Below, piece by piece: positions 7,653 through 42,038 of a stretch of 64,000 nt of DNA. The stretch comes from a virus. Within the stretch, counting starts at the first letter, position 1; every line of letters begins with the position of its first letter. A program made the translations under genes and the position numbers. The stretch lies in the IMG/VR virus record IMGVR_UViG_3300032516_000007, positions 51,042 to 115,041 of that record; one strand, written 5' to 3'. A model generated the notes under the pieces. The model saw only the letters and a program-made list of their open reading frames with translations, was not told the origin of the DNA and did no database searches.

Positions 7653-8408
7653 ATGAAACGTCCAATGAAAGAATCGGCTTACGATTTAACTGATCTTGTT
7701 GATCAGGATAAATCTGGTGATATTCACTATTCTACTGATGGTACTAGAACCATGAATCATGAAGGGATGATTGATTGGGATCAAAGTACCGAAGCGATGG
7801 ACCTTGGTGACAGTCATCCAGAGGACAAAGTTGTTTTCGATTACGATGGCAATGTGATTCATGATCCTGAAATGGAGGGTCAGGTAGATGGTGGAGACGA
7901 GGAGCCGGAAGCTTCACCAGAAGAGGAGCTTCCTGGTGATTCTAGAACCACGGGAGAACCCACCAAGGAGCCTGCCATGGGAACTGAATCTCCAAATCCC
8001 CAGCCTACTCAACCGTTAATGGGGATAGCCGCTCAGGGGGGCCAAGAGGAGCCTCAGGAAGCTCAGGGGGAGCCCCAAGGGGGCCAGGAGACAACTCAGG
8101 GGGCTCAGGAAGAAGAGCAGACCCAGGAGGGTCAGGAGCCATCCCAGGAGGGTTCTGAGGAGCAGGGAGACCTTCTCTCAGTGGATGACCCTGCCCAGGC
8201 CCAGCAGCTCCTCCAGAACGCCGATAAGATGGACCGGCCTCACATGCTTCAGGTGGCTAAACTCATCTGGGGGGATGACTACGAGTTTGAGGACTGGATG
8301 ACGGACGATTACGTGCGAGCAGACCTGAAGGGGTCACTCGAGGATGTTCTCGAGAGCCATGAAGAGGGAGTTGCTCCTGTCGAAGGGGAAGACGAGGAAG
8401 AGGAGTAG
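7653..8408 (+). CDS. Very acidic low-complexity protein, 251 aa
   Basis: The product is dominated by Glu, Gln, Gly and Asp. Residues about 125-175 are a run of short repeats of the kind QEGQEPSQEG, and the C-terminus ends GEDEEEE. A more ordered segment (about 185-230: KMDRPHMLQVAKLIWGDD) lies near the end. Acidic phage proteins of this kind can be scaffolds, DNA mimics or charge-balancing internal proteins. I cannot choose among these. It lies between the GNAT gene and the sigma/topoisomerase fusion. Its 3' end overlaps upstream codons of the next open frame, but the next true start is 8416. Confidence 0.65.
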   Translation: MKRPMKESAYDLTDLVDQDKSGDIHYSTDGTRTMNHEGMIDWDQSTEAMDLGDSHPEDKVVFDYDGNVIHDPEMEGQVDGGDEEPEASPEEELPGDSRTTGEPTKEPAMGTESPNPQPTQPLMGIAAQGGQEEPQEAQGEPQGGQETTQGAQEEEQTQEGQEPSQEGSEEQGDLLSVDDPAQAQQLLQNADKMDRPHMLQVAKLIWGDDYEFEDWMTDDYVRADLKGSLEDVLESHEEGVAPVEGEDEEEE

Positions 8409-18808: not shown

Positions 18809-18837
18809 TTGACACTTGATTCTAGAACCAGTAGTTT
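18809..18837 (+). promoter_or_regulatory. Promoter-like element with TTCTAGAA in the spacer
   Basis: TTGACA (18809-18814) is followed after 17 bases by TAGTTT (18832-18837). The palindrome TTCTAGAA (18820-18827) occupies the spacer, where a regulator would overlap RNA polymerase. The -35 hexamer is perfect; the -10 is weak. The element lies upstream of the terminator at 18868-18903, so transcripts starting here must pass it to reach the capsid genes. Confidence 0.5.
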
Positions 18838-18867: not shown

Positions 18868-18903
18868 CAAAGGGAGATGGGCATGAGCCCCTCTCCCTTT
18901 TTG
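18868..18903 (+). terminator. Rho-independent terminator before the capsid operon
   Basis: AAAGGGAGATGGGC, loop ATGA, then GCCCCTCTCCCTTT forms a long GC-rich stem with one bulge, and the T-run continues to 18902. It ends 12 bases before the protease ATG, so it separates the enzyme locus from the capsid genes unless read through. Confidence 0.8.
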
Positions 18904-40699: not shown

Positions 40700-40729
40700 T
40701 TGACAGTGGTTCTAGAACTAACGTAGACT
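40700..40729 (+). promoter_or_regulatory. Promoter-like element with TTCTAGAA, upstream of a terminator
   Basis: TTGACA (40700-40705), 18 bases, then TAGACT (40724-40729). TTCTAGAA (40710-40717) lies in the spacer 6 bases before the -10. The strong terminator at 40763 follows, so a transcript from here would be about 65 bases unless antiterminated. Confidence 0.55.
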
Positions 40730-40762
40730 CGATCTACCTGTTGTCCACCAGGCCACAGGCTT

Positions 40763-40803
40763 GGCCCCCCAGCGGTCCTCGACTTCTGGGGGGCCATCTT
40801 TCC
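40763..40803 (+). terminator. Strong terminator before the tail tube gene
   Basis: GGCCCCCCAG pairs with CTGGGGGGCC around a 13-base loop, followed by ATCTTT. A 10-base-pair GC stem with a short T-run. It lies 102 bases upstream of the tube ATG. Confidence 0.8.
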
Positions 40804-40904
40804 AGAAACGTGCTCTGGTTCTGACCAGACCTCACGGTCAACCTTCGGCACGTTCGAAGTTCACAGATCGAAATCAACAACAACTTTGAATAGGAGCTAC
40901 GTTC

Positions 40905-41035
40905 ATGCCGATCATCGCACCAGATCAATCCAACGTGAAGGGTCCCGGTCAGGTCTTCACAGGTCCACGAGCCCTCTTCAAGATCGGAAAAGATCCCGTG
41001 GGCTACGCTGGCAATGTCTCTGGTGAGGAAACCAT
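40905..41035 (+). CDS. Tail tube protein, exon 1
   Basis: AGGAG (40893-40897) precedes the ATG. The 43 complete codons (MPIIAPDQSNVKGPGQVFTG, then KIGKDPVGYAGNVSGEET) match the N-terminus expected for a contractile-tail tube protein. If translated straight on, the frame stops at 41040-41042. Joined to exon 2 at 42039, the reading frame is kept (codon AT|C) and the protein becomes 155 residues. The exon ends CCAU, which can pair with GUGG in the intron (U-G at the splice), as group I introns require. This is a split gene, not a pseudogene. Confidence 0.75.
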
Positions 41036-42038
41036 CAAGTAAGGTGGCCCAGGAGAGAGATCTCTTGAGGAGAACCGCGTGAATTGCTGGAACCCTACAG
41101 TGTGTGGCAACACCATGGGAATCAGCAGCCAAGCTCCTGGGGAAACCTGGGAGAAGGTTCAACGACTACCCGATGGGGAAGTCTTAGTAGAGGGCTCTAT
41201 GAGTCCATCGAAGCTGTACGAAAAGTTGACGCGACATGAGCTTCGCTCAGCAGTGATCGGAATGACCTTGGGTGATTTCAATCTTCAACTCCATGGTGTG
41301 AATGTGAGAGCACAAACCTCACATTCGCCCAACGTGCGTGATTATGTGGAGCTGAAAGGAACCATCCTGAGGCAGATTCCGGGTCTTGGATACTCTTTCA
41401 AGGATGTGGTTCAGGTGAATCGCAAGCTTGGCAAGAGTTATCCTCAGATCAAGATCTGGACCACCACTCATCCATTTCTAACCAAGATCAGAGAGAGGAT
41501 GTACAGACCTGAGAAGCAGCTCAATAAAGGGCTTCTGGAAAGTCTTACTCCTCTTGGTCTGGCCTTGTGGTTCATGGATGATGGTCACTTGTCCCTTCAT
41601 CATAATGTGAAGAGATACAGTACCGACACAGATCGATCACCTTCCGAGAGAAGCATCAGTTCGAGACCATTGATCATGAATACTCATTCATTCTCAGAGG
41701 AAGAGAATGAAGTGATCTGTTCATGGTTGATGTCTAGATGGGGTATCGAAAGCCAAGTGAAGTGGTCTAAAGGATTCTTCGTGTATATGAACACGGAGAA
41801 TGCACGCAGGTTCGTGGACATTGTTCGTCCTTACGTTCTTGCTGTGCCTTCGATGCACTACAAGATCAACTTTAAGTACAAGAATGCTTCCCCAGAACTC
41901 CTTCGGTTCAATATTGAATACTGGACCATGGAGGAAGGGCACGAGCGCGCGGCATCCTGTGTGCGACAGGATGGTGATATAGTCTGAGCCTCTGGGAAAC
42001 CAGAGGAAGTGGAGTCTAAACAACTCCACGGTAACAAG
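41036..42038 (+). ncRNA. Group I self-splicing intron in the tail tube gene
   Basis: All four conserved core elements of group I introns are visible in order: P (AATTGCTGGAA, 41082-41092), Q (AATCAGCAGCC, 41120-41130), R (GTTCAACGACTA, 41157-41168) and S (GATATAGTC, 41976-41984). R and S pair as GACUA/UAGUC (P7). P3 can form between CCGCG (41075-41079) and CGCGG (41948-41952), and P8 between CATCCTGT and ACAGGATG. Downstream hairpins include CCTCTGG-GAAA-CCAGAGG (41989-42006). The intron would end in G at 42038. The endonuclease gene lies between R and the P3 3' strand. Exact ends are inferred from frame and base pairing. Confidence 0.85.
41199..41987 (+). CDS. LAGLIDADG homing endonuclease inside the intron, 262 aa
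   Basis: I start at ATG 41199, after AGAGGG; the frame is open back to 41079 but that part overlaps the ribozyme core. Two LAGLIDADG helices are present: SAVIGMTLGDFNLQ and PLGLALWFMDDGHLSL, each ending in the acidic residue that binds metal. Between and after them are typical beta-rich DNA-contacting regions (VYMNTENARRFVDIV). One chain with two motifs acts as a monomer. It would cut intron-less copies of the tube gene and so spread the intron. The stop codon overlaps the S element (GATATAGTC then TGA), so the end of the coding sequence and the ribozyme core share bases. Confidence 0.88.
   Translation: MSPSKLYEKLTRHELRSAVIGMTLGDFNLQLHGVNVRAQTSHSPNVRDYVELKGTILRQIPGLGYSFKDVVQVNRKLGKSYPQIKIWTTTHPFLTKIRERMYRPEKQLNKGLLESLTPLGLALWFMDDGHLSLHHNVKRYSTDTDRSPSERSISSRPLIMNTHSFSEEENEVICSWLMSRWGIESQVKWSKGFFVYMNTENARRFVDIVRPYVLAVPSMHYKINFKYKNASPELLRFNIEYWTMEEGHERAASCVRQDGDIV

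Follow-up and report, generated by a model that had tools for sequence, protein, structure and literature searches.

What controls the tail tube gene of this phage, and does a second operon share that control? The original prediction described a promoter followed by a terminator-like stem before the tube gene, saw the layout repeated at 18.8 kb and proposed a control step common to both. The window (the whole 64,000-nucleotide stretch analysed here) comprises bases 51042-115041 of the 115,041-base record of an uncultured soil phage. Gene family matches in the window and record, including tail sheath and baseplate proteins, are those of a contractile-tailed phage, and further PHROG/Pfam family matches identified DNA polymerase A, terminase, portal, UvsX and SbcCD genes. 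The major head protein is about 40% identical to those of SPO1-type phages. Neither an integrase nor a repressor was among the PHROG/Pfam family matches listed, and the phage looks virulent. Its tube protein had zero matches in 50,697 cultured phage records, and none of 33 candidate stretches in genome contigs was confirmed as a cultured relative.

The tube gene and its promoter

The tube gene promoter, TTGACA-18-TAGACT, lies on the plus strand at 40700-40729, with the -35 box at 40700-40705, the -10 box at 40724-40729 and an 18-base spacer. A palindrome in this spacer and a 10-bp GC stem beginning 34 bases after the -10 box complete the predicted arrangement, every named part of which was found in place. 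Taken alone, the promoter match is at chance level and not significant, with 15 promoter-like sites seen within 20 kb by a consensus scan against 15.8 expected by shuffling. The case for the promoter therefore rests on conservation. Hexamers of the sigma-70/A type, spaced within the 16-18 bases expected of such promoters, are kept in the relatives: TTGACN-17/18-TANNNT occurs just upstream of the leader described below in all ten aligned sequences (the window and nine relatives), compared with 34 of 20,000 shuffled regions. These ten represent nine distinct lineages, one of them in two strains, because L012 and the window share about 95% identity across 7.4 kb of neighbouring sequence.

The plus-strand tube gene starts at ATG 40905, preceded by a Shine-Dalgarno AGGAG at 40892-40896 (+). 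Its exon 1 (40905-41037) was recognized by protein match to the tube genes of L013 and L014, which are uninterrupted. In the window, the gene carries a group I intron (+) whose approximate ends are at about 41026 and 42042. The RF00028 match (41026-42006; 44.5 bits, E 1.2e-9) covers the full model length and falls slightly under the gathering score of 50. An ORF at 41079-41987 within the intron encodes a LAGLIDADG endonuclease (PF03161, E 7.3e-24). In L153 and L154, what looks like an intron interrupts the gene at that codon too.

The leader RNA before the tube gene

Alignment of the pre-tube regions revealed three hairpins at 40737-40854, all on the plus strand, which form a 5' leader RNA with the GC stem in the middle. 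The earlier suggestion of a leader RNA is well supported by this promoter-then-hairpin layout, which is kept in divergent phages. The first hairpin, H1 (CCUGUUGUCCACCAGGCCACAGG, 40737-40759), begins 6-12 bases past the -10 box in all ten sequences (7 in the window), and is therefore at the predicted 5' end of the transcript. Its sequence is conserved among the relatives, reading CCUGUYGUCCRCCAGGCNACAGG in most of them. The third hairpin, H3 (40807-40854), consists of an outer stem (40807-40813/40848-40854) and an inner stem (40822-40826/40836-40840). In alignment A5 (10 sequences, 12 pairs), its covariation was 0.581, against 0.264 for shuffled and at most 0.104 for slid controls; eight of the 12 pairs had changed on both sides, and 96.6% of paired cells could pair. 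A pseudoknot within H3 (CCAG/CUGG) was rejected, being without covariation and broken in up to three of the ten.

In all ten sequences, the whole leader folded more stably than its shuffles did on average (z -1.4 to -5.5). At most one shuffle in 200 was as stable in nine of them; the L145 leader was not clearly above its shuffles (15 of 200), and the minimum-energy fold differs in L149 and L153. The folded region (40734-40854) leaves the ribosome site uncovered by H3, which argues against simple translational blocking.

The H3 covariance model (R1) behaved as a single-copy model. It gave 11 matches in 71 sources (1.19 Mb), one per source and all upstream of the tube gene, and one match per record in nine of nine records. 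Because it was trained on 10 sequences from these same loci or contigs, H3 scores high there by construction, and its absence elsewhere is the informative part. Among 62 tube loci, 13 (L145-L157) carry the leader, and the remaining 49 (L158-L206) gave zero matches to the model. Near-identical or duplicate sequences (L010, L011, L014, L015, L023, L024, L150-L152, L156 and L157) were left out of this search; the H1 pattern places the leader in L010, L011, L015, L150-L152, L156 and L157. Across the viral collection, the exact H1 pattern occurred in 8 stretches, all on contigs already known as leader carriers. A scan with an exact 14-mer, which alone is not diagnostic, gave one match per contig among the matches listed. 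No Rfam model (4227 models, E up to 1) matched the leader, the group I intron being the only match.

The middle hairpin, H2 (40762-40796), keeps its helix while its sequence varies. The stem GGCCCCCCAG/CTGGGGGGCC has 10 pairs, or 11 with a flanking T-A pair, and the stem region exceeds its shuffles in stability by a wide margin (z -4.75). The sequence is almost wholly different between phages, with a strong stem retained; even at their 95% identity, the window and L012 differ by a two-sided change, C-G against G-C. H2 thus has the stable GC stem of an intrinsic terminator. Its tail is pyrimidine-rich and weak, with 4 T in the 8 bases from 40797, where a U-tract was taken to have at least 5, and H2 went unflagged in the terminator scan. 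Termination at H2 may be weak or absent because the tail is poor in U. The original label of terminator is therefore doubtful at 40.7 kb, whereas it is good at 18.8 kb, where the hairpin has a T-run.

We consider it about an even chance that the tube gene has a dedicated late promoter, gated through the palindrome, and a three-hairpin leader that acts in cis after initiation. Gating would come from a phage DNA-binding regulator that sits on the TTCTAGAA palindrome. The first 120 or so bases of the transcript, from its predicted start, would then fold into H1 at the 5' end, the GC stem of H2 and the covarying H3. H2 would make the polymerase pause or partly terminate, and H1 and H3 would set how much tube mRNA passes and how long it lasts. 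The expected outcome would be a level of tube protein set independently of the sheath and tape-measure genes, and the head operon at 18.8 kb would follow the same design with another leader hairpin. Sequence evidence covers the promoter, the palindrome, the leader structure and the conservation of each; the transcript start, the regulator, attenuation and any effect on tube expression are what we infer, and we are least sure of which protein binds the DNA and of whether the leader attenuates or stabilizes.

Stabilization would mean that H1 together with H2 and H3 blocks exonuclease or RNase, so that an abundant tube mRNA lasts longer without any termination. The 5'-terminal position of H1 would suit such a role, as would an H2 that retains helix but not sequence and ends in a weak U-tract. 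However, H1 and the internal loops of H3 are conserved in sequence beyond the needs of a pure barrier, and the 18.8-kb counterpart bears a real T-run; we rate this explanation as rather unlikely.

The put leader RNA of phage HK022 has hairpins at the transcript start, upstream of a terminator-like stem. Compared with that arrangement of parts, the tube leader is similar in having transcript-start hairpins before a terminator-like stem. Unlike put, it precedes a structural gene, and its third hairpin lies beyond the stem. Listings from searches of the PMC library showed no paper describing a structured leader for a tail-tube gene.

Leaders of other kinds were seen in more distant tube loci. In L158 and L166, the predicted fold of the leader, about 180 bases before the tube gene, hides the Shine-Dalgarno sequence within a long CUCCGUC/GACGGAG stem, a hint that other phages may regulate the tube at translation. 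L159-L165 and L175 have terminator-like hairpins between the upstream gene and the tube gene, with a common loop word, GUYGUCCCCUCC, that is possibly related to H1.

The twin site at the head operon

A twin promoter, TTGACA-17-TAGTTT (18809-18837, +), precedes the head protease gene, with TTGACA at 18809-18814, TAGTTT at 18832-18837, a 17-base spacer and TTCTAGAA at 18820-18827. Its leader hairpin, AAAGGGAG...CUCCCUUU (18869-18900, +), is terminator-like and has the T-run. The terminator scan left this hairpin unlisted as well, probably owing to an internal mismatch. The TTGACA box, a ACTCCAMAAAGGGAG-like motif before the hairpin and the hairpin itself are all kept in L025 and L209, and the promoter-then-hairpin order was found in three of three phages. 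The tube-leader (H3) model had no match at 18.8 kb, where the leader is a different RNA. Between palindrome and -10 box lie 6 bases at the tube promoter and 4 at 18.8 kb.

The repetition that had been predicted is thus real as a layout kept in divergent phages, but its register is unequal, its leaders differ and its palindrome exists in 36 copies, not two. The idea of a two-copy repeat was ruled out by these copies and the two differing leaders. The predicted control step shared by the head and tail operons is well supported, most strongly by the order of promoter, short leader, hairpin and structural gene, which is conserved in two operons.

This order also bears on the explanation that H2 merely terminates the upstream transcript, with a promoter lying before it by happenstance. 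The more distant L159-L165, in which a T-run hairpin stands directly after the upstream gene and before the tube gene, agree with it. The promoter-then-hairpin order, present in all ten tube leaders and all three head leaders, does not, nor does the conservation of H1 and H3 around an H2 whose U-tract is poor, and we regard this explanation as distinctly improbable.

A dispersed palindrome

The operator-like palindrome in the tube promoter spacer, TGGTTCTAGAACTA, occupies 40707-40720 and has no assigned strand. Its core, TTCTAGAA (40710-40717), is one of 36 exact copies in the 115-kb record, where 1.6 are expected; this is the top excess among all 8-mers. The window alone has 17 copies against 0.77 expected, and a reversed control word occurs 7 times in the record. 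The core is a perfect palindrome with flanks TGR...YCA, where G is found at -2 in 31 of the 36 copies, T at -3 in 23 and A at the mirror place in 25. A symmetrized matrix, built on the same 36 sites that it then scores, found 47 sites scoring at least 14 bits where random sequence gave 0.4, and 58 at 11 bits where it gave 2.6. Judged by these matches, the tube-promoter palindrome is one of about 50 dispersed operator-like sites.

By a simple longest-ORF choice of genes, about 22 of the cores are intragenic, where synonymous shuffles give 1.2, and 14 are not. These totals do not change when site 7940 is assigned to the ORF 7653-8408, where it really lies, and site 30937 to an intergenic region, its probable place. 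TANNNT was found 6 bases downstream of the palindrome in 5 of 72 flanks, against 0-2 at the other distances tried, and promoters are overlapped in other registers, for example at L005:1933 and 18820. An operator fits these varied registers better than does an activator site whose geometry is fixed.

The spacer word TTCTRGAA was present in four of the ten leader sequences, two of them close strains, and missing from six. In L012, L147 and L153 it stands at offset 4 from the -35 box, as in the window. L147 and L153 lack the dispersal, with 0 and 1 copies of TTCTAGAA in fragments of 17.5 and 18.6 kb, and G004-G006 have 0 copies. We infer that the tube-promoter operator may be older and that its amplification may have taken place in the window's lineage. 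No convincing equivalent of the dispersed palindrome was found in the relatives G004, G005, G006, G007-G012 and G016; CACCGCGGTG and CCTCGAGG in G012 were rejected as candidates, having no conserved flanks and being judged codon-driven by eye. The palindrome and the hairpins look like separate layers, since the leader persists without the palindrome and most palindromes are intragenic.

The late promoter pR' of phage lambda has a Q-binding element between its -35 and -10 boxes and is followed by the terminator tR'. Although antitermination is possible as a control step, a strict Q-type version, with the palindrome as Q-binding element and H2 as a tR'-like terminator, is very unlikely: the parts do stand in the pR' order, with the site in the spacer and a hairpin shortly downstream, and TTCTAGAA lies 27-52 bases upstream of three of the few T-tailed intergenic hairpins, but 36 copies in unequal register weaken a reading that calls for a single site at a fixed place, most copies are intragenic, the U-tract of H2 is weak, the leader is retained in phages without the palindrome, and neither a Q-like gene nor any other antiterminator gene was seen among the family matches listed.

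Dispersed repressor sites offer a closer comparison. In cluster A mycobacteriophages (L5 and the TipsytheTRex repressor), more than 20 copies of one short stoperator site occur at promoters and elsewhere; each is a 13-mer without symmetry that follows the direction of transcription, and it is a monomer that binds there (PMC9283540). The many dispersed copies of one site found here resemble the stoperators so described; the site here is unlike them in being palindromic and mostly intragenic, with no repressor or integrase seen among the matches listed. The element was placed with neither stoperators nor Q sites, because it is not asymmetric and is not a single site. The SPbeta element SPBRE (PMC10516654) is described as a dispersed 15-bp sequence in the intergenic promoter regions of a prophage, first found by sequence and later shown to be bound at promoters by the master repressor MrpR. 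The palindrome differs from that description in its 22 of 36 intragenic copies and in belonging to a phage that looks virulent.

The tube promoter, the conserved leader and the genome-wide palindrome together point to a dedicated control of tail building. We put forward only tentatively, as a possibility somewhat on the unlikely side, that an undescribed class of leader RNA gates tail-tube synthesis in uncultured SPO1-related phages, and that in the window's lineage the operator of this promoter has spread into a palindromic counterpart of the stoperators with about 50 sites. To our knowledge, how the ratio of tube, sheath and tape-measure proteins is set at the RNA level in contractile-tailed phages has been little explored, and a conserved leader seen nowhere but ahead of the tube gene makes the question open to direct test. 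The dispersed palindrome suggests that stoperator-like networks may exist beyond the phages from which they are known, and that copies of a single promoter operator may have multiplied along one genome.

For a regulator of the palindrome, the matches listed included only weak HTH-type or regulator matches, at L004:14019-14414, L003:1386-1934 and L004:9050-9718. A gene-poor stretch at L004 10870-12160 (record 30.9-32.2 kb), possibly an origin or control region, has repeats of CATACATACA and CCCTACCCTA, and four of the TTCTAGAA sites fall in about 1 kb there. At L003 7344-7412, TTCTAGAA comes right after a stop codon, and a strong hairpin ending in TTTTTT lies within 30 bases.
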